A stretch of DNA of 64,000 bases from Terriglobia bacterium (GTDB taxonomy: Bacteria > Acidobacteriota > Terriglobia > Terriglobales > Acidobacteriaceae), in contig JAIQGL010000011.1 in the NCBI GenBank assembly GCA_020072585.1, positions 186,001 through 250,000 of the forward strand. The letters are read 5' to 3'. The position numbers were made by a program, and so were the translations under genes. Below the pieces are notes generated by a model. It was given only the letters and a program-made list of their open reading frames with translations, was not told the origin of the DNA and made no database searches. This document shows positions 17-11,908 of the stretch, one piece after another. The stretch's first letter is position 1, and each line of letters starts with the position of its first letter.

Positions 17-1456
17 ATGCTCTTCCTGAGCCCCGAGAAGGCGGAATGCGGTTACCTGAAACTGTCTCCGTCAATTAGTAACATGTGGTTCAACAAGTTG
101 GAAGTTGTATTGCCGGCTCGGAGGCTTCAAGGGAAGAGTTCCGAACGACGACTTCCCATCCGTTTGTTGTCGGAAAGAATCGAGCTGTTTTTCTCTAAGT
201 ACGGTGTTGGCGTATTATCCGTAGCGCTCGCTCTGGATCGGGAACCTGTCAGTCTTGATGAGGCATTGGAATTCAACTATAGGCTTTCTCAGGCCAGGGA
301 GCACACTGCTGCGAAGCTACGCACTCCTCATCCTTCCGACAATCCTGAGAAATGGTCTGCCCTACCTGAGCATATCAAGGCACAAGTTCCGGAACCTCCT
401 GCAACGAATGCGCCGCTTTTGGAGCAGCTCGGGCGGGTCGGTGGTGAGTTCACTCTCTTCGGGTTGGCCCACGAACTTCTGCGGCCTCTTGAGAAGCTGG
501 GTTTCCGTTCAGCGCAAGAAGAACTCTCTCCCTACACGGTGGCGAGGTTTGGCGAGAAGGTCGATCTGCAGAATGCCGAGGCTTGTGCCGACATGGCGGC
601 TTTTCTGTCAGCACTCGCCCAAGTGGAGGAACCCGGCCACGCAGGTGCGGCACGCGGTGAAATCGGCGTGACCAATGAAATGTTGAATCGGCGGCACTGG
701 GTGGGCGTTGGCCTTCTTGGTGCAGCGCATATTGTTGCGGATCAAGTGCCTCTGAGCCACCCTTTCAATACTGCTCGTGTACCTCGCGTCGTGCTGAAGT
801 ATTTCATTCCTTATTTGTTGGCGTTGCTGCAGCGACTTACTCTCCACCGGATTATTGATGAGGCCAGCATCTTGGTGATGTCAAAAGAGGATGATGCAGG
901 GCGCGCTCTCAGCGACCTCCGGAACCACTTGTTGGAGTTCGCTTTGGTGGGTCATTTTACAGAGGTCAGTACCAGGGAAGCTCTTCACCGGTATTATCGA
1001 ATGTGCCAGCAGGGCCTGGATGTCCGAAATGCTTTGAGCGACGCTCGCCAGGCTATAGCCGATCTCGATGCACGACATTCTGCGGAGAACCAGGCTCAGA
1101 TCGCACAGGAAACTTCGCGAAGCGTGGCTGCAACACGCGACTTACAACAAGACATGGCGAAAAACGTTGAGGCAACCAGGAAGCTCCACGAGCAGATGGC
1201 CCAACACTTAGATGTGGTTGCGCGTGTTCAGCTTATGGTCGAGTGGCTAGAGGTCTTCGTGGTTTCCGTTGCGGCTGCCGATCTGTGGCATTTGTTCTCC
1301 TATGAAAATAAAGGGTGGTTTCCGACATGGGCGGCCAAGTTTTTCAGGGACCGTGACTCATTTGTTTCATGGGGTGTCGTCTTAGCCGCTTTGTTTGCTG
1401 GAGCTATTACACTCTCTTTTATCCAACCCTGGCGTCACAGGAAGCATGGGTCCTAG
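17..1456 (+). CDS. Hypothetical protein with coiled coil and two C-terminal membrane segments
   Basis: I do not recognise this 479-residue protein. The middle is mostly soluble and helical. Residues about 340-395 (repeated Ala, Gln, Glu, Arg, Thr) look like a coiled coil. Two hydrophobic stretches near residues 405-425 and 450-470 are probable membrane helices, and the chain ends in a basic tail. This resembles CorA-like architecture but no GMN motif is seen. The frame stays open to the left edge of the window, so the true start may lie outside and the entry may be 5' partial. It converges with the TonB-like gene and is probably not part of the ubiquitin-like operon. Confidence 0.6.
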   Translation: MLFLSPEKAECGYLKLSPSISNMWFNKLEVVLPARRLQGKSSERRLPIRLLSERIELFFSKYGVGVLSVALALDREPVSLDEALEFNYRLSQAREHTAAKLRTPHPSDNPEKWSALPEHIKAQVPEPPATNAPLLEQLGRVGGEFTLFGLAHELLRPLEKLGFRSAQEELSPYTVARFGEKVDLQNAEACADMAAFLSALAQVEEPGHAGAARGEIGVTNEMLNRRHWVGVGLLGAAHIVADQVPLSHPFNTARVPRVVLKYFIPYLLALLQRLTLHRIIDEASILVMSKEDDAGRALSDLRNHLLEFALVGHFTEVSTREALHRYYRMCQQGLDVRNALSDARQAIADLDARHSAENQAQIAQETSRSVAATRDLQQDMAKNVEATRKLHEQMAQHLDVVARVQLMVEWLEVFVVSVAAADLWHLFSYENKGWFPTWAAKFFRDRDSFVSWGVVLAALFAGAITLSFIQPWRHRKHGS

Positions 1457-3979: not shown

Positions 3980-4564
3980 TTATTTGTGCTTCGCCTCTTC
4001 GCCCGGCCAGTAGTCACAAGGCACAGTGTCGCATCCGCAGTGGCGTTCGTGATACTCGTAGCAGAAGAACCACGCTGCAGCCATAGTCACAATTTGAACA
4101 GCGGTTGTGTTCGTTTTCCAGGTGCCATCGCCGGGATACATAAGGCAAAGACTACCGTCTGAATACTGGTGCTTGGGCGACGATACCTCTGGATCAACGG
4201 CGAAAACTCTCGGTGCGGCGTAAGGGAAATCGTCAGGGTAGACAACGGAGATTGTGTACGAAGACGAGGCATTTTGCGGCCTCAGGCAGCCTACCCAACC
4301 TACTACAGCACCCGTCATATGCAGTTGGAAGGATGGAAAGCGGGCTTCCATAGCCTCTTTTTCATCAACCAGACGGCGTCGGTGGCTCTCGTACCATGCG
4401 AACCAGCGTTGGGGTTTCAACTGGGTAACCGGCTGATCGGTATTCCTTTCGACCGTGCCATTAGCCGTCTCCACAGTATCTTCCGGCCGGATGATCTCGC
4501 CTTCTGAAGTAATGTGTATGGGGCGTGATTCACTGAGTTGCTTTGCAATATCATCTGCGTCCAT
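3980..4564 (-). CDS. E2-like ubiquitin-conjugating protein (prokaryotic UBC fold)
   Basis: The 194-residue protein has the hallmarks of bacterial E2-like proteins. A helix begins around WYE at 57-59, then come strands, then VVYPDDFPYAAPRV (108-120, the conserved P-x-F/Y-P-x2-P loop), then YSDGSLCLMYPGDGTW with C140 as candidate catalytic cysteine and W149 behind it. The end CYEYH...WPGEEAKH matches the usual close of prokaryotic E2s. The first 50 residues are an extra disordered extension. C-terminal cysteines (168, 176, 178, 183) could bind metal. A GGAGG lies 11 nt before the start. It lies between the RING-like and E1-like genes and nearly abuts E1, so thioester transfer from that E1 is expected. 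Confidence 0.88.
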   Translation of the reverse strand: MDADDIAKQLSESRPIHITSEGEIIRPEDTVETANGTVERNTDQPVTQLKPQRWFAWYESHRRRLVDEKEAMEARFPSFQLHMTGAVVGWVGCLRPQNASSSYTISVVYPDDFPYAAPRVFAVDPEVSSPKHQYSDGSLCLMYPGDGTWKTNTTAVQIVTMAAAWFFCYEYHERHCGCDTVPCDYWPGEEAKHK

Positions 4565-4627
4565 TCAATTCATGACCTCCAATGTGTTGTTCAAGCCACG
4601 GCCGGGCCTCAGGCATCGAAGTCCAGC

Positions 4628-5536
4628 TTAAGAATCATCTCCCCGCCGCGACAGTATTAGATCCGCCAGCAGCGGGGCGGCCTCAAGAAACGGTGGATGC
4701 GCGGGATCAATCGGGCGGCTGCATTGCAGACTCTCGGAACCACTGATGAGCGCGGCCGATACTGCCGGGTAGGCCTGGGGGAAAACCGCAACCAGAGTAC
4801 CCTCTCGCCGCAGAATGTTTCCATCCATCACAAATGCAAGTTCCCCTGACGGCAGCAGGCGTGAGTCGAAATCGACGCGCGCATTTCTTAAGGCACTAAT
4901 CTCAGCCGACAGGCGAAGTCTTCCTTCAGCACTCTCGTACCAATTGGCGCTGCGTGGCACATCATTTTGCCCCGTTGATGATGGATCGCAGAACAATTCA
5001 AAGCAAACTGCAACGGGCGCGAGTTGAGCGGATTCTTTGCACGAAGATCTATATCGTTCCACCGCGTCATCCAAGCGGCGTGCCAGCTCAGAGTCCCGCT
5101 GCTGCGGATTCGTTATGGTATTGCTCGAAGTAAGTACAATGTGAGGCTCTGATAGCGGATGGTCCTTTTGAGTGATCATGACAAGATGTTTTGTTTCCCC
5201 CGCACCCTCCCTGAATGGGAAACGAAATACCAGCCGGCGGTCGGGAAGTAAAGAAGTAGCCACACCCGTGAAACCCCTCTTATCAATTTCCATCAACTCT
5301 GAAACAAGTCTCATCCGGCCCGCAGGAGCTTCATACCACTGGAAGTCATCTCCAACACCATTCAGCGATTGAAATGAATCGGCTGATGCTTCGGAATTGC
5401 ACGCCGGACACAAGAATTTCTCTGGTTCCGGCATCGATGCGCACCTTGTACAAAACCTTAGCTGGCAGGATTGGCAGATCCGGATCTCTGTGAGTGTTAC
5501 CAGATTTACACAGCGAGGGCAAGTGATACTGGTCAT
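4628..5536 (-). CDS. RING-like zinc protein with two E2/RWD-like repeats (candidate E3)
   Basis: From the ATG at 5536 the protein has 302 residues. The N-terminus carries eight cysteines as four CxxC pairs: C6/C9, C21/C24, C29/C32, C43/C46. The spacing fits a binuclear RING-like or double zinc-ribbon fold. Two diverged repeats follow (about 66-140 and 198-270), each starting with WYE, a G-R-x-R-L helix and a LLP turn. Both resemble the start of the neighbouring E2, but neither has a catalytic cysteine at the E2 position. In eukaryotes RING proteins often carry RWD domains; here the gene lies between a JAMM protease and an E2. An E3-like adaptor role is inferred, not shown. An alternative start at 5596 adds 20 residues with little support. 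Confidence 0.7.
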   Translation of the reverse strand: MTSITCPRCVNLVTLTEIRICQSCQLRFCTRCASMPEPEKFLCPACNSEASADSFQSLNGVGDDFQWYEAPAGRMRLVSELMEIDKRGFTGVATSLLPDRRLVFRFPFREGAGETKHLVMITQKDHPLSEPHIVLTSSNTITNPQQRDSELARRLDDAVERYRSSCKESAQLAPVAVCFELFCDPSSTGQNDVPRSANWYESAEGRLRLSAEISALRNARVDFDSRLLPSGELAFVMDGNILRREGTLVAVFPQAYPAVSAALISGSESLQCSRPIDPAHPPFLEAAPLLADLILSRRGDDS

Positions 5537-5687
5537 AAGCTTTCGGAGATGATCGCCGCCCGCTTCGCGGAGCTGCAGGCGTCTTCTGAATGCCAAAATG
5601 CTTCGGCCGCAAGGTACACAGACAAGCGGAGCTCCGTTCGTGGGACGCAGTTATTACGATCGGGCTTCGGAAACTGCTGTGGCGAAA

Positions 5688-6653
5688 TCATATCTGCTCA
5701 TCGGCCACATCCAATCGGCTGGATGAATCCCGTGAGAAAAACAGGTGAATATCCGATATAAATTGTGCGAGCTCTAAATTGCTATGCCAGAAATGCGCTG
5801 ACGTAATGTGAACTATAGGAGGGGTTTGTGGATGAGACTTGTCACATATAACGGTAACCTCCTGATGGCCCGGCCCGTTAACTGCGATAGCGATTCGCTT
5901 GTCAGGGAGGATTCTGGCGCTCAGGTTCAAACCTTTCGTTGTCAGCGCCATGATGCTGGCAAGCTCTTCCTTACCACGCCCCACTTCATACCAGTGGGGC
6001 TCGGTCAATGGCGCGTCGGCACCCTCATCCTGCGCCCGCGACGGCTCCGTGGCAGCTGTTATGCTAATTGTTGATATATTGCTTGTTGCGCCAGCAATAT
6101 ACTGCTGCTCCCAGCTATGTATGCTATCCATGAAGTGAGCGCGCTCCTCGACTGTCGGCGAGAAGATACAGTATCGCAACGAAGTATCCATACAATAACA
6201 GTGGCGCTTTACCTTGCTATCATCAGTAACTGTAAAAATCGGGAAAAGCAGAAGGCCGTCAATTTTATATGCAGGATCACTCAAAATTGCCCGGCAACCT
6301 ATTTCATCACCTGAACTTGGCTCCGTGAAATTTCTGGGATGCTTATGCCATTCTCCCAAATACTCCAGTTTGTGCTGATGATGCATGTTGTCGAGAAGGA
6401 ACTGGGAGAACCGCAGGTCACGCTCAAACATCACCGGATGATGAAGAGCCGAGGGGCCTGGAGGAGTGGCAGCGAGCACAACGCGCTCTGTACCTGGACC
6501 TATTGTCCCTAGCAGCAAACCACCGGTCTCCATTTCTTCCCGGGCACGAAGTACCTGGTTTTCAATGAAATCCAAGACACCCTTCGCAAAAATGATCTGG
6601 TGACTTTGCTTTATGGGTAAGATTGAATGTGATCCCCAGAACCTGAAGTCCAT
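5688..6653 (-). CDS. JAMM/MPN+ metalloprotease (deubiquitinase-like) with C-terminal E2/RWD-like domain
   Basis: The JAB/MPN+ family are zinc isopeptidases that remove or process ubiquitin-like proteins. From the ATG at 6653 (321 residues) the active-site set is complete: E42 in METGGLLLG, then H103-K-H105, and S113-x2-D116 seven residues later. The catalytic domain ends near 180. A linker leads to a C-terminal domain (about 219-305) starting with WYE and containing ILPDKR and HPQTPPIV, related to the repeats of the RING-like neighbour. The start at 6653 is preferred because GGGGG sits 7 nt upstream and the upstream ATG at 6686 overlaps the -10 box. It is the first gene of the leftward operon. 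Confidence 0.9.
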   Translation of the reverse strand: MDFRFWGSHSILPIKQSHQIIFAKGVLDFIENQVLRAREEMETGGLLLGTIGPGTERVVLAATPPGPSALHHPVMFERDLRFSQFLLDNMHHQHKLEYLGEWHKHPRNFTEPSSGDEIGCRAILSDPAYKIDGLLLFPIFTVTDDSKVKRHCYCMDTSLRYCIFSPTVEERAHFMDSIHSWEQQYIAGATSNISTISITAATEPSRAQDEGADAPLTEPHWYEVGRGKEELASIMALTTKGLNLSARILPDKRIAIAVNGPGHQEVTVICDKSHPQTPPIVHITSAHFWHSNLELAQFISDIHLFFSRDSSSRLDVADEQI

Positions 6654-6713: not shown

Positions 6714-6758
6714 GCTGGAACTTGCAGTGGAGTAAATGGACTTCGCAGGTTTTTGGTG

Positions 6759-6772
6759 TGCAAAATTTTGCA
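6759..6772. promoter_or_regulatory. Perfect 14-bp palindrome between the divergent operons
   Basis: TGCAAAATTTTGCA is an exact inverted repeat about 45 bp upstream of the leftward -35 box and upstream of the rightward coding start. It is a plausible operator for a dimeric regulator acting on one or both operons. No regulator gene adjoins it. Confidence 0.45.
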
Positions 6773-6915
6773 TTGCTTCCTGCCTGTTTGGAAAGTCATG
6801 CAATAATACAATCGAGTTCTTCAAGATAAGAATGCTTAGGAAGCTCTATCGATGGGGCCCGTCGCGCTGCATCCTACAAAACTCGTATGTGTTGCTAGGC
6901 CCGCCGGTCCCAAAT

Positions 6916-8604
6916 ATGTCGCAAATGTCTTCGCCTGAAGATGGCACGTTACAGGTGATCGTGCCGGCGAATGGAAGCACGATCGTGCACATTAAATCAT
7001 TGCCCGTCTGGCTGCACAACCCCGCTGCTCGTAAACGGTTCTTTCAATCCTTTGCGCGGCTCACCTCTCATCTGATCGGCGAGGCCAGGCGCCGCGGCGC
7101 TTCTGTAATCCCCTGCGGAGTCCGCATCAACAACTACCGATGGGATCAGGCGGCGGCATCAGCTTTGTTCGAGATTGAGTCATTTGATCTTGAAGAGCAG
7201 CTAATGTATACAAATCTGCTTCGTTATTGGAGCAGTTGCCTGATTGCAGCCGGTGGCCGCGGTGGCATCGACAAAATCGGATCCATGAGTGGAAATTCCA
7301 GATTGCGCATGGAGTCCAATTCTCGTTTCTCACCCCGGGCATGGGTATCTACCGAGCCACGATTTCTTGCGTTAGCCGAAGCCGAAATGAAGAGCAGCGA
7401 AGGAATTCCGAGTCTCGATTCTCTGGAAGTAGTGCCTCGCTCAACCAACTTTCTTACGGGAGTTCAATCATGGTTGATAGATGCTCAGGCTTTGCCCGCA
7501 ACCATCCGGGCGTTCGCGATCCTTCATCAGGCGCTCTATCTCCGCGCAAGAGCAATCGCTGGAAGGCAAGAGTCGCTCCCCTTCGTGAGCCAGCAGGTTC
7601 TTGAGCGTAACCGCTCCCGCGCGATATCGGACGGCCTGCAGGCGCGGTTCGAGCCAGGTTCCGCTCTGGCAAGCGAGACACTCCTTGATCTGATCGAGTC
7701 TTTGCGGGAAGAGTTCCAGATCCTGGAGGCAGAGCCGGAAGAACTCGCACCGATAATTCTGGGCGTTCATCTCCGGACCCTGGGATTTGGCGCCATGCAG
7801 ACGGAGAACGAACTGCTCCAAAAAACTGTGCGCACTTACAACAAGAACCAGGAATCACTGCAGGATGGACTCTCTGACCTGATCATGAAGGCAGGTTTGC
7901 GGGACCTCCTGCTGGAGAGGAACCAACAATCTTACGGCACCATGAGTTCAGAGCTGATGGCTTGGTGGGGATCCTGGCTGAAATCATCAACGCCCGGAAC
8001 GCGACATAAAGGTTCTGCAGGGGACCTAGCCACGTCACAAAGGCCCATGGGAGCAGCAAGAAAACCCGATGGGAGAATGCCTGAAAACCGGCGCAGGCAA
8101 GGTCCTGCAAAAGGAAGTGGCGAACCAAGCACGCCCTCGCAGCCGGGTAAGGTCGGCGACCATCTGAAGGCGTTGCTTGAAAAGAAGGAACTGGGTCCGG
8201 CTCCCAGCTTGCAGGAGCGGGTAACTTTGTTGCGCTCTTTTCGCTTAAATGCTAAATCCATGCAGATTGGCTTGGCCGTGTCACAGTTGCCTCCGGAACG
8301 GCAGTCGGTGGTCAAAGCCTGGCTCGCTCCCAATTCCGGGCGGGCAAGAGCATTTACGCCCGATAGCCAGCTTTGGAACCACCCGAACGCCGCGCAAGCA
8401 GTCGCCAATTGCCGCAATGAGGGGATGTCGGTGATGGCCGTGGAAGTACGGCAGGAGCAAGAAGTTCCGTTGCGGGACTGGCTGGCTGAGCTTAAAAGAC
8501 AAATTCCGCCGGACATCGAGTTGTTTAACTGGCTTCGTCCGCGTTTTCAAGGCAAAATTCGCCAGGAACTCATCCTGCTCAGACGCGAGGAGGCGGCAAA
8601 GTAA
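6916..8604 (+). CDS. Unrecognised protein, first gene of the zinc/KH-VWA operon
   Basis: I do not recognise this protein (562 residues from the ATG at 6916; the frame is open from 6736). The residues encoded before 6916 overlap the intergenic palindrome and look non-coding, but no start has a strong ribosome site, so 6832 and 6925 are also possible. The N-terminal 300 residues look like one globular domain rich in Trp, Arg and Leu (IKSLPVWLHNPAARKRFF near 24-41). A low-complexity basic linker (about 365-415) leads to a second small domain (about 425-562). No membrane segment or signal peptide is seen. Its stop overlaps the next start (TAATG), so it is translationally coupled to the zinc-finger/KH gene. 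Confidence 0.75.
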   Translation: MSQMSSPEDGTLQVIVPANGSTIVHIKSLPVWLHNPAARKRFFQSFARLTSHLIGEARRRGASVIPCGVRINNYRWDQAAASALFEIESFDLEEQLMYTNLLRYWSSCLIAAGGRGGIDKIGSMSGNSRLRMESNSRFSPRAWVSTEPRFLALAEAEMKSSEGIPSLDSLEVVPRSTNFLTGVQSWLIDAQALPATIRAFAILHQALYLRARAIAGRQESLPFVSQQVLERNRSRAISDGLQARFEPGSALASETLLDLIESLREEFQILEAEPEELAPIILGVHLRTLGFGAMQTENELLQKTVRTYNKNQESLQDGLSDLIMKAGLRDLLLERNQQSYGTMSSELMAWWGSWLKSSTPGTRHKGSAGDLATSQRPMGAARKPDGRMPENRRRQGPAKGSGEPSTPSQPGKVGDHLKALLEKKELGPAPSLQERVTLLRSFRLNAKSMQIGLAVSQLPPERQSVVKAWLAPNSGRARAFTPDSQLWNHPNAAQAVANCRNEGMSVMAVEVRQEQEVPLRDWLAELKRQIPPDIELFNWLRPRFQGKIRQELILLRREEAAK

Positions 8605-9896
8605 TGAAGACCGCCTCGGTTGAGTTGCATCTAGACGTCCGCGGATTGCGAAAACGTACCGGTGGTCCGCAAGATATTCTCGATGCCTGGAATTCGTCGG
8701 TCGCACAAATCTTCGGTCGAACACTGCACACCGGTGATTCTGCGGACCTTCTTTTACCGGACCACCGCAAGCTCTCGTATTTTGTCATCAGCACGCCGGC
8801 TCCGGTCGTTGTGACCGACCAGACAGATTTTTCAATTTACAGCCTGACCGAGGTCCCCAACGCGTACCCGCCTTGCCGGTACTGTGCCCGTGTCGATCAA
8901 AGGCGTGCAGGCTTCTTCAAGTGCGACCAATGCAAGGAGGAGCGGGGCACGGGCTTGTGCTTTGACCACGTGCGTTTACTGCGTAATGCCATCCGCAAAA
9001 GCAAGGTCATTGCGACTTGCGAGGAACACCTGCCAAAGTGCGAGTGTAATGAACGCGCAGAGTTCTGGTGTCTTGGGCCAGGATGCGGCGGCCGGGTTGC
9101 GTGGTGTTCCAGGCACCAGATGCAGCATCCCACCTCGCGAGAGGTCTACTGCTCGAAATGTTACCAGCAGATCTATCCGGCATGCGCTGTAGGAAGCTGC
9201 AATGAAGTGGCGCATAATCGTTGCGAGCATGTCGACCCGGCAGTGGGAGAGCCTTGCGGTCGCAGCGTGTGCAACATCCATGTGACGCGATGGCAGGTTT
9301 TTGGATACGAGAAGATTGGATTGGCGCGGTGCCAGCAGCACCGTGGCATCCGCGCCTTGTCTGATCTGGAGGTGGCCTGGCAACTAGTGGCCGGAACGGC
9401 CTTGCGGCATCTGCGTGGTGCCCAGAACAAGTACAATCTTCCTACACTGCCGTCCCTGAAAAACATTCTCCTGAAGGCACGGCGTCAGAAATATTCGGCG
9501 CGTTCGGTGTTGGTTTTCTTTCTGACCGTGGAAGACCAGCTCAAGCAGATTCGGCAGGCTTCTTCTCTTCACAGAAAAATGCAGGATTTGATCACGCGCG
9601 CAAGGCCGCGATGGAAAGAGCAGGTCGAGACAGAAGAGAAGGAAATCAACGAGGGCATGCTTCTGATGGAACGTCTGAAGGCGATCCTCGCGCAAAGCGG
9701 AATGTCAGATTTCATCAGCGTTATCGAACTGAGCGATTACCGGCCCAGATTCTTCAAGGGACCGACTCCTAGGCCAGCTTTGTTTGTTCGTTTGCCGCAG
9801 CATTTGGTGCCCCGTTTTATCGGGAAGGACGGCGTTAAGATCAAGGGCTTGTCACAACGGTTGGGAGTTGAGGTAAAAATAGAGAGACTCGCATGA
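8604..9896 (+). CDS. Multi-zinc-finger protein with C-terminal KH RNA-binding domain
   Basis: The 430-residue protein has an N-terminal domain of about 90 residues, then a cysteine/histidine-rich region (about 91-246) with repeated CxxC pairs and CxxH ends (CFDH, CSRH, CNIH, CQQH), suggesting several treble-clef zinc fingers. A helical segment (250-370) precedes a C-terminal KH-like domain (about 390-430). The KH signature is LVPRFIGKDGVKIKGLSQRL with the GKDG loop followed by a helix and a final strand, and implies binding of single-stranded RNA. A GAGGAGG lies before the start. The gene overlaps both neighbours (TAATG and ATGA). The combination is unusual; targeting of RNA or ribosomes for the VWA partner is inference. 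Confidence 0.75.
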   Translation: MKTASVELHLDVRGLRKRTGGPQDILDAWNSSVAQIFGRTLHTGDSADLLLPDHRKLSYFVISTPAPVVVTDQTDFSIYSLTEVPNAYPPCRYCARVDQRRAGFFKCDQCKEERGTGLCFDHVRLLRNAIRKSKVIATCEEHLPKCECNERAEFWCLGPGCGGRVAWCSRHQMQHPTSREVYCSKCYQQIYPACAVGSCNEVAHNRCEHVDPAVGEPCGRSVCNIHVTRWQVFGYEKIGLARCQQHRGIRALSDLEVAWQLVAGTALRHLRGAQNKYNLPTLPSLKNILLKARRQKYSARSVLVFFLTVEDQLKQIRQASSLHRKMQDLITRARPRWKEQVETEEKEINEGMLLMERLKAILAQSGMSDFISVIELSDYRPRFFKGPTPRPALFVRLPQHLVPRFIGKDGVKIKGLSQRLGVEVKIERLA

Positions 9897-11908
9897 ATTC
9901 GGGGAACATTTCGGGGCTCCAATGGGTGACGCTGCCGGCCCACTGCTCCCTTGGGGTCGAGGAGGTCCTGGTCGGACGAGAACAGCTCGACGCGCCGGGA
10001 GCGGCTTTGCTCGTTGCTTATCCCGGGGAACCCGCGGAGACCATTCTTCCCGTTATGGTGTACCCGGACGGCAATGTACCCGCGCGTGCACTGGTTACAA
10101 GCGAAGAACTCATCAAAAAACTGGGACTATGGGGCAATAACCGCCCGCATTGGCAACTGCGGTTCGGGGGCTTCGATTCCCCCATCGCCCGGGAAATCTG
10201 CCTCGAGATGGCGTCAGAGCAATCCATCGACCAGGCCTCGCAGTTGCTGGCATTTTCCAAAGAGCTGCCTGGCCGCATGATCTATACGGCTGCGCAAGCC
10301 TCAGCGGCAGGCCAGTTGTTGGAGGTAGAGTCGGTGCCGTTTCGAATCCGCAGCCTTGTTCCCGCTGCGGTACGGGACACCGTGTACACGATTGAAGCGC
10401 CGCATACCCAGGTCTCACTCTTCGCCTCCAGCCAGCGAGTGGGCGTGGACGTGGTAATACTGGCAGATTGCAGCGGCTCAATGAGCATTCCTGACCTGAC
10501 CGAGACCATGGAAGGCGAGACGGGCGCATCTTCATTCTTCCAGCGGGTAACCGGTGTTTGGAATCCGTCCAGCAACGTGCGTTCGGTACCCCGGATTCAT
10601 GTACTGCGCCGCGCACTTCTCGATTTGCTCGATCGCCGGCTCAGGGTCTCCGGATCGTCATCGCGCATTGCTTTGATCGGCTTTGGAACCGCACCCCGAT
10701 TGCTGTTCCCGTACCAGGAGGGAATGCTGCCGCTAGACCAGAGCACACCGCCCGAGAGTCTTCGCCGCTTCCGCGATATTATTGCCACCCTGCAGGCCGA
10801 CATGGGGGAAACCAGAATCGGTCTGGCCATCTCGTTTGCGGCTTCACATCTCTCCAAATATGGCAATCCTAAGAATGAGCGGCTTATCGTGTTGCTCTCG
10901 GATGGCGCTGACTGGGCACCAGCCAAAGATGAACAAACCGGTGAGATCCTCGAACAGGTCAGCGAGGAACCGGTCTCTCTCATGGAGCACCTGCATGAGG
11001 CGATGAAGATCCATCTTCATGCAATCGGTATCAGCAACGATCGTGTATACGATGATTACTTACGCAGGATAGGAAAGAGTGACCAGCAGATTGGCAATCG
11101 TCCGAACCACGCGCTACTGGAGCGGTTAGTCCAGGTGGGCGGCGGTGATCCCGCGCGCACAGGCGATGCACAGGTCGTCGAGGAATACTTTCATTCCCTG
11201 GCCGGCGGCATAACCCGGCAGGTTGATTTGCGTGGCATCCGAAGAGAAATTCCCCGAATGACGCCGGAGGAGCGTTCACGAGTGGAGCACGAAGTGTCCT
11301 CCGCGGAGCCTCGGAGTGAGGCTCCAGGCGTTGCAGAAGATCAGGAAACAAAGGCTCTTGCCAATGAGTTGGAAGGCTTGTACCAGGAAGTAAATCTACG
11401 ATGTATGAATCTTGTAGGAACCCGGTTGTTTGAGGCCTCGATTGAGTCGTATATCAAACTCCAGCAACACATTTCAGCGTCTCCCGCAAATTACTCGGAA
11501 TTTACGCTTTTCCTATTCTCGCTCTGGTCTGTATTCGACGATCAGATGATCCCATCTGTCCGCCACAAGCGGGAAACGCCGCCTCCTCCACTGGACGAGA
11601 TTCGTGAGTATTTATACAGCTCCCGGTTTAACGACATCCAGATATTACGAAATTTTGGCGCACATGACGTTTTGAGCGGAAGCAAGGCGGGTGAGAATGC
11701 GATGCGGATAGGCGAAATATTGAATCGCTATACCGGACAGACCTACATTGCTGCTGACGACGCCCAAGGTTGGTCTAAACTTCAAAAGAGCCTGCTTGAG
11801 GTTTTAAGAGATGTTCTGAAGATGATTATTGCCAAGCTCGAAGCTTTCGAGCGAACCCAAGGCACTAAGGAACCGCCAGAACAGGGGATCGTAATCCGCG
11901 GCTGGTAA
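9893..11908 (+). CDS. VWA-domain protein with C-terminal HEPN-like R-x4-H motif
   Basis: Of 671 residues, the first 180 form an unassigned beta-rich domain. A von Willebrand A domain spans about 183-440 with a full MIDAS: D192-x-S194-x-S196 (ILADCSGSMS), T307 (MGETR) and D337 (LLSDGADW). After a charged linker (440-480), an all-helical C-terminal domain carries LRNFGAHD, i.e. R586-N-x3-H591, followed by long helices. R-x4-H with Asn after Arg is the active-site signature of HEPN ribonucleases. That assignment rests on the motif and helical context only. The start overlaps the stop of the zinc/KH gene (ATGA). A metal-dependent scaffold with an RNase effector end is the favoured reading. Confidence 0.78.
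   Translation: MNSGNISGLQWVTLPAHCSLGVEEVLVGREQLDAPGAALLVAYPGEPAETILPVMVYPDGNVPARALVTSEELIKKLGLWGNNRPHWQLRFGGFDSPIAREICLEMASEQSIDQASQLLAFSKELPGRMIYTAAQASAAGQLLEVESVPFRIRSLVPAAVRDTVYTIEAPHTQVSLFASSQRVGVDVVILADCSGSMSIPDLTETMEGETGASSFFQRVTGVWNPSSNVRSVPRIHVLRRALLDLLDRRLRVSGSSSRIALIGFGTAPRLLFPYQEGMLPLDQSTPPESLRRFRDIIATLQADMGETRIGLAISFAASHLSKYGNPKNERLIVLLSDGADWAPAKDEQTGEILEQVSEEPVSLMEHLHEAMKIHLHAIGISNDRVYDDYLRRIGKSDQQIGNRPNHALLERLVQVGGGDPARTGDAQVVEEYFHSLAGGITRQVDLRGIRREIPRMTPEERSRVEHEVSSAEPRSEAPGVAEDQETKALANELEGLYQEVNLRCMNLVGTRLFEASIESYIKLQQHISASPANYSEFTLFLFSLWSVFDDQMIPSVRHKRETPPPPLDEIREYLYSSRFNDIQILRNFGAHDVLSGSKAGENAMRIGEILNRYTGQTYIAADDAQGWSKLQKSLLEVLRDVLKMIIAKLEAFERTQGTKEPPEQGIVIRGW

Follow-up and report, generated by a model that had tools for sequence, protein, structure and literature searches.

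We analysed a stretch of 64,000 nucleotides from a Terriglobia bacterium (contig JAIQGL010000011.1, positions 186,001 to 250,000; the whole stretch is called the window below). It contains a minus-strand operon of four genes at 6686-2980, in the order JAMM protein (P0003), zinc-finger protein (P0002), E2 (P0001) and E1 (P0004). An earlier note on this DNA, made from the sequence, had proposed that one domain is repeated in three neighbouring proteins of the operon, and that a UBC-fold domain had been duplicated into inactive adaptor copies. We find that P0002 carries two copies of this domain (R1 and R2) and P0003 carries one (J), that these copies are homologous and lack a catalytic Cys, and that a UBC/RWD fold is the best reading of them.

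The gene limits were taken as the longest reading frames, which leaves gaps of 91 and 63 bases within the operon, an overlap between the E2 and E1 genes, and 127 bases after E1. P0003 (5688..6686, with a likely ATG at 6653) matches Pfam Prok-JAB with 30.5 bits against a cut-off of 25; the PADLOC JAB models place its JAMM peptidase domain at about residues 27-168 (6183..6608), and the metal site is present as E53, H114, H116 and D127, i.e. the E, H-x-H-x10-D pattern. P0001 (3980..4564) matches the PADLOC E2 model at 2.4e-20 and scores 20.3 bits, under the cut-off of 25.4, with Pfam Prok-E2_B. Its E2 domain, counted from a WYE motif (residues 57-194; 3983..4396), contains the catalytic C140, which aligns with a Cys in all 29 E2 rows of our alignment, and its N-terminal 54 residues (4403..4564) are similar, by a shuffle test, to the LGGEY peptides encoded in a sister operon (see below). 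The adenylation domain of P0004 (2980..4017) matches Pfam ThiF with 108.8 bits against a cut-off of 28.1 (E 3e-31). PHROGs gave no match for P0001-P0003.

P0002 (4628..5596, with a likely ATG at 5536) has a RING/FYVE-like zinc cluster at residues 26-66 (5399..5521), in which eight metal-binding residues, all Cys, are arranged in four pairs (C26-x2-C29-x11-C41-x2-C44-x4-C49-x2-C52-x10-C63-x2-C66); the x4 spacing is nearer to that of FYVE and PHD domains than to a classical RING. None of the RING family models matched P0002 above its cut-off, the best Pfam scores being those of FYVE_2 (17.6 bits, cut-off 27.2) and IBR (12.8 bits, cut-off 24.3), and the best match among PDB sequences was TRIM31 at E 0.21. 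By its sequence the zinc domain is RING-like, and we have not filed it as a RING. The proposal that the repeats are joined to a RING protein is therefore plausible in outline, although the zinc domain reaches no RING family cut-off. Burroughs reportedly associated prokaryotic RING fingers with such conjugation systems in 2011.

Three related repeats in the zinc-finger and JAMM proteins

R1 (P0002 residues 87-190; 5027..5338), R2 (P0002 residues 219-322; 4631..4942) and J (P0003 residues 232-318; 5733..5993) are three copies of one domain of about 90 residues that starts with WYE. R1 is supported by pairwise alignment, profiles and a structure model, R2 by pairwise alignment and profiles, and J by its similarity to R1 and R2. 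Local alignment with BLOSUM62 gave scores of 81 for R1-J (shuffle maximum 48), 64 for R2-J (54) and 57 for R1-R2 (48), i.e. each pair scored above all of its 1000 shuffles (0/1000), even though identity to R1 is only 22 and 27% for the other two repeats. The E2 was not clearly similar to the repeats by the same test: its score was 39 with R1 (20/1000 shuffles as high), 32 with R2 (p 0.073) and 24 with J (p 0.62). The notion of one domain repeated in three proteins thus stands for R1, R2 and J, but is not borne out for the E2 copy by this test.

The segment coordinates of the earlier note were right, its residue counts starting at ATGs (M21 of P0002 and M12 of P0003), and WYE is indeed shared by the four segments, at residue 57 of the E2, residues 87 and 219 of P0002 (67 and 199 from M21) and residue 232 of P0003 (221 from M12). 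In R1, R2 and J a stretch resembling a helix comes next, and after it an LLP or ILP turn and then a turn rich in P; the LLP/ILP turn, which had been ascribed to the E2 as well, is absent from it. The P-rich loop is present in all four segments as a stretch of aromatic-or-His-P-x-x-x-P (FPYAAP, HPLSEP, YPAVSA and HPQTPP, of which HPLSEP belongs to R1), with R2 carrying half of it only. The catalytic Cys is confined to the E2, as had been claimed: C140 lies 22 residues past the P-rich stretch, and no repeat has a Cys at that place. R2 has a Cys 11 residues past the stretch and R1 has one 35 residues past it, neither of which fits the catalytic position, and J has no Cys after it.

Relationship of the repeats to E2 enzymes

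Profile-profile comparison and structure prediction had been proposed as checks of the fold. We built a hidden Markov model (HMM) from the three repeats alone, termed A3, and searched it against sets of 396, 5, 294 and 200 genomes, a few of which fall in more than one set. In the genome of the window, R1, R2 and J were the only A3 matches at E<=0.01. At E<=0.001, the matches from all sets were the three copies, an E2 in a genome of the planctomycete phylum (G621) and a chance frame in another genome (G803). The G621 match, the only one at this threshold in 294 genomes of that phylum, is on contig 89 (E 3.8e-4 for one genome, 22.8 bits) and falls in an open reading frame (ORF) of 165 residues (L056 484-981), which starts QWYETEAGRARL, has HPLLEP where R1 has HPLSEP, and continues with a Cys, WNP and WFLNYWVWKSTGRWP, the last three resembling the layout of the sister-operon E2s. 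Profile comparison identifies this ORF as an E2 (115 columns aligned, among them the Cys, WNP and C-terminal region; P 2.7e-8), and the gene after it encodes an E1 (ThiF 1.2e-13); Pfam gives the ORF no family name. We regard this unsought match as the strongest sign of a link to E2s, chance being unlikely in this case because the ORF turned out to be an E2. Four further genomes of the 396 gave matches at E 0.001-0.01, one of which (G358) was to a vWA-like ORF, and A3 had no match in viral contigs.

In the profile-profile comparison (hhalign), the three repeats taken jointly scored beyond chance to E2-type profiles, with P 9.8e-9 for the G621 E2, P 1.3e-5 for a set of Phd-fused E2-like domains from the sister operon (22 rows, one place twice) and P 0.006 for an E2 set (28 rows, without the window's own). 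With each of four E2-type targets, all 150 column shuffles stayed below the real score. JAB C-terminal domains, which served as the negative control, gave P 0.39 against the three repeats; a kinship of J with these domains of the sister operon is likewise unsupported (P 0.39). When the repeats were compared singly, R1 matched the G621 E2 along 72 columns that run from WYE to past HPLSEP (P 6.6e-8), and the match of R2 to the Phd-fused set spans 50 columns lying outside WYE (P 1.5e-4).

A structure model of R1, predicted from an alignment of 44 rows (predicted local distance difference test score, pLDDT, 77; predicted template modelling score, pTM, 0.66), has a helix, four strands and helices, which is the UBC/RWD order. 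Searching with this model in Foldseek gave E2, UEV or RWD titles for 49 of the 50 matches listed, out of 537 with E<=10, the other being a Fanconi core complex chain. In VIA-align the RWD domain of RNF25 superposed on the model with a Z of 5.2 over 100 residues (root-mean-square deviation 4.2), where a Z below 8 may reflect a common arrangement. The profile of the 44-row alignment also matches E2 structures (best E 4.2e-7), which reflects its E2 rows. The J model has two short strands, a helix, four strands and a helix, and some RWD, UEV and E2 chains are among the 50 matches listed for it by each of Foldseek and VIA-align.

A number of results weigh against a UBC/RWD fold for the repeats. A lone match in 294 genomes is not significant on its E-value alone, and the further 200 genomes also gave a single A3 match at E<=0.001, the G803 frame, which we rejected because it runs antisense to an ORF resembling a transposase. 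A preliminary profile comparison that used ten E2 rows had returned a probability of 4% (P 0.011). R1 alone gave P 0.11 and 0.092 with the Phd-fused and E2 sets, and R2 alone matched the G621 E2 (P 2.5e-5) over 21 N-terminal residues only. J alone gave no significant match to the E2-type targets (P 0.048-0.11), so that it is assigned to the UBC/RWD fold by way of its likeness to R1 and R2. No row for Pfam RWD (PF05773), UEV or UBC was obtained for P0002 or P0003 at E<=1, a search in which the HMMER filters drop most weak matches, and the repeat HMM found only a ribosomal protein among PDB sequences (E 0.65). As 41 of the 44 rows behind the R1 model are E2 or E2-like, the model fits the fold but is no independent finding of it; its best Foldseek E was 0.020, with none at 0.001, and its VIA-align Z was at most 5.9 (a Mediator complex chain), with Ube2W at 5.8. 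The J model, predicted from a repeats-only alignment with R1 and R2, was poor (pLDDT 48, pTM 0.33), had no significant Foldseek match (best E 0.56) and reached no VIA-align Z of 5 or more.

The repeats might instead have a different fold, that of some small alpha/beta domain, and be like E2s only in the WYE helix and the P-rich turn. The short N-terminal match of R2 to the G621 E2, the want of a significant link for J alone and the poor repeats-only model of J would all fit such a domain. We nevertheless consider it distinctly unlikely, given the length of the R1 alignment with the G621 E2, the R2 alignment with the Phd-fused set beyond the WYE region, and the joint scores that no column shuffle reached. 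A UBC/RWD fold remains the best reading of R1, and by extension it would apply to R2 and J.

We used a tree of 23 sequences (87 columns) to place the repeats relative to the operon's own E2. P0001 joined the CBASS E2s (E2s of cyclic-oligonucleotide-based antiphage signalling systems; support 96) and then the sister-operon E2s (92), with the repeats excluded. R1 and the G621 E2 were paired (74) and J joined them (57); weighing on the other side, the split that separates R1, R2, J and the G621 E2 from the other sequences had a support of 36. The P0001 profile behaved in the same way, giving P 2.5e-20 to the E2 set and 0.1 to the G621 E2. As judged from these comparisons, the repeats did not arise by recent copying of the neighbouring E2, because the tree keeps P0001 apart, and the best reading is that they are nearer to a G621-type E2 than to the operon's own. 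What does connect P0001 with the repeats is the WYE with which the first helix begins, a motif common to P0001, the repeats and the G621 E2, and for which, among 46 P0001-like ORFs listed, a W-x-E at that place was found only in L016 (as WWE). This favours the earlier note's version of events, a recent duplication of the operon's own E2 into inactive adaptor copies. Against that version stand the grouping of P0001 in the tree, its profile scores and its weak or absent pairwise similarity to the repeats, and we regard it as highly improbable. In view of where this motif occurs, an older common origin of the WYE end is possible. What survives of the proposed duplication into inactive adaptors is therefore a set of homologous Cys-less domains, with a UBC/RWD fold as the best reading, and not a set of copies of this operon's E2.

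Surrounding genes, related operons and known systems

Searches for relatives of P0002 returned one weak match to its zinc region in 99 other genomes, which was set aside since we take its ORF to be a secretion-type ATPase that has a zinc region at one end, only the genome of the window among 396 genomes of the phylum, and nothing in plasmids or viral contigs. As no ortholog was found, the architecture of a zinc protein with repeats rests on one genome. When genome contigs were scanned with an E1 alignment, most matches were to the sister operon, probably because three of the four alignment rows came from it. This sister operon is widespread (L017-L019, L027-L046, e.g. L019:6934-10668) and encodes a peptide of about 57 residues, an E2, a second E2-like domain joined to a Phd-type antitoxin domain, an E1, a JAB protein and a metallo-beta-lactamase, the last five genes occurring together in 19 of 21 loci. 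LGGEY is present in all 21 peptides detected in the sister loci (one place twice) and is the exact end in 6. The idea that the Phd-fused E2-like domain is dead was rejected, since its Cys is kept in 16 of 22 rows (Ser in 5, Ala in 1; one place, L018/L029, is counted twice). Just before the G621 E2 and E1 there is a small protein ending in RHGG (L056:3-479, +), a possible modifier with no recognised Ubl (ubiquitin-like protein) fold, and the same contig encodes SAM domains with a NACHT/STAND-like ATPase (L056:5240-8455, +).

A divergent plus-strand set of three genes (6736-11908) begins 49 bases from the operon, as measured between longest frames, and encodes a 622-residue protein (W622), a Cys-rich protein (W430) with a sub-threshold C-terminal KH match and a vWA protein (W671). 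W622 and W430 each had no match in 99 other genomes, and plasmids gave no match for W622, W430 or W671. On the other flank of the operon, a protein encoded at 17-1456 (+) of the window matches a PADLOC CorA-like model (6.4e-7), and beyond the low end of the window lies a gene for a large protein kinase with HEAT repeats (L060:9565-12720, +).

Operons of E1, E2 and JAB genes with RWD-like inactive E2s were described in 2006 (Iyer et al., PMC1779556). In the account of bacterial Ubl operons given there, type 6e resembles the present operon in having an E1, a JAB protein, a Cys-less E2-fold domain, proposed to bind Ubl, and a zinc protein. It differs in that its inactive domain is stand-alone or fused to poly-Ubl, whereas here the domain is repeated on the zinc and JAMM proteins, and in that an active E2 is present here and no Ubl was recognised in the nine neighbouring proteins tested. 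Genes for JAB, E1, RING-type E3 and Ubl-E2 proteins were described in vWA-centred systems in 2020 (Kaur et al., PMC7159879). The Ubl module of the FtsH ternary conflict systems is like the present operon, as far as its own section describes it, in having separate genes for a JAB protein, an E1, a prokaryotic RING-type E3 and an E2-containing protein, with a vWA gene nearby; that section makes no mention of RWD-like repeats (PMC7159879). Unlike those systems, the nine proteins tested here gave no FtsH, MoxR, EAD1 or Ubl match, and in place of a tandem FtsH-type ATPase and MoxR beside a vWA protein only the vWA protein (W671) was found among them, the search for such partners having covered these nine proteins and not the rest of the genome. 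Passages of other papers describe a further Ubl-conjugation module with EAD1 fusions (PMC8195603) and count Bub operons (PMC13373217). The tandem-Ubl gene that marks a Bil (BilABCD) operon was not found, no Ubl row having been obtained for any of the nine proteins.

The operon also resembles type II CBASS and 6A-MBL systems, in that the window's E2, E1 and JAMM proteins match the PADLOC E2, E1-E2 and JAB models. The NCBIfam 6A-MBL model picks out P0003 and P0004, with scores far under its cut-off, and the two best-ranked plasmid matches of the E2 adjoin genes annotated as CBASS. The present operon differs from these systems in its separate E1 and E2 genes and its extra zinc protein with repeats, and the CD-NTase that would identify CBASS is missing, as is a metallo-beta-lactamase, among the nine neighbouring proteins. 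One row of a PADLOC cyclase model for P0001 covers only the C-terminal part of that model (424-531 of 542), which we read as its E2 portion.

In eukaryotes, RWD-RING proteins, e.g. RNF25, have a Cys-less UBC-fold domain attached to a RING, a plan like the one proposed here, and the JAMM peptidase BRCC36 has a UEV-containing partner. The likeness to RWD-RING proteins and BRCC36 complexes is one of plan only, as no sequence link was found. Among the literature matches listed, we recognised no earlier description of an operon in which a UBC-like domain recurs on both a RING-like protein and a JAMM protein, which is no proof of absence. The new feature is the presence of UBC-like repeats on both the RING-like and the JAMM protein, as known from one genome.

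Proposed role of the repeats

The gene content suggests that the operon encodes a reversible conjugation system of the ubiquitin type, consisting of an E1, an E2, a RING/FYVE-like zinc protein and a JAMM peptidase. From what is known of these families, P0004 would activate a modifier, C140 of P0001 would carry it, P0002 would help in its transfer, perhaps as an E3, and P0003 would remove or process it. We propose that R1, R2 and J are Cys-less UBC/RWD-fold docking modules that direct both the RING-like protein and the JAMM peptidase to the same partner, which might be the charged E2, the modifier or a scaffold, and we hold this to be moderately probable. With a common partner, attachment and removal would act at the same place. 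RWD and UEV domains serve as docking modules in eukaryotes, and the docking role of the repeats is proposed by analogy with them.

Alternatively, the repeats could have the UBC fold but bind a substrate or a stress or phage signal instead of the conjugation machinery, each copy serving as a recognition module by which the zinc protein and the JAMM peptidase find their targets. Strong divergence among the repeats, at the low identities given above, is what recognition modules may show, and the lack of any relative of the P0002 repeats in 99 other genomes (apart from the weak zinc-region match) or in 395 others would suit a fast-changing gene of a conflict system. A partner in the machinery that the attaching and removing proteins have in common would more simply account for their carrying one kind of domain, and we think target selection rather unlikely.

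The nature of the modifier bears on a more far-reaching variant. No Ubl row was obtained in the nine neighbouring proteins tested, and the intergenic gaps are short (91 and 63 bases). The E2 N-terminal 54 residues scored 7.1 bits against the sister peptides of about 57 residues, a score that 1 of 1953 scored shuffles (2000 made) reached; the shuffle test is what supports this likeness, the plain hmmsearch having given 3.7 bits (E 0.023 for eight sequences). Conjugation might proceed without a ubiquitin-fold protein, using a short-peptide modifier such as these 54 residues, with the writer and the eraser sharing a dead E2-derived docking domain. We consider this quite improbable.

The use of inactive E2 folds as adaptors, both on RING ligases and within JAMM complexes, is typical of ubiquitin systems in eukaryotes. 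If docking by the repeats is the correct reading, a bacterial operon would use the same inactive-E2 adaptor solution, and would do so on both a writer-like and an eraser protein. It would then become testable whether E2-derived docking domains predate eukaryotes or arose twice, and the four genes would offer a compact set for reconstitution.

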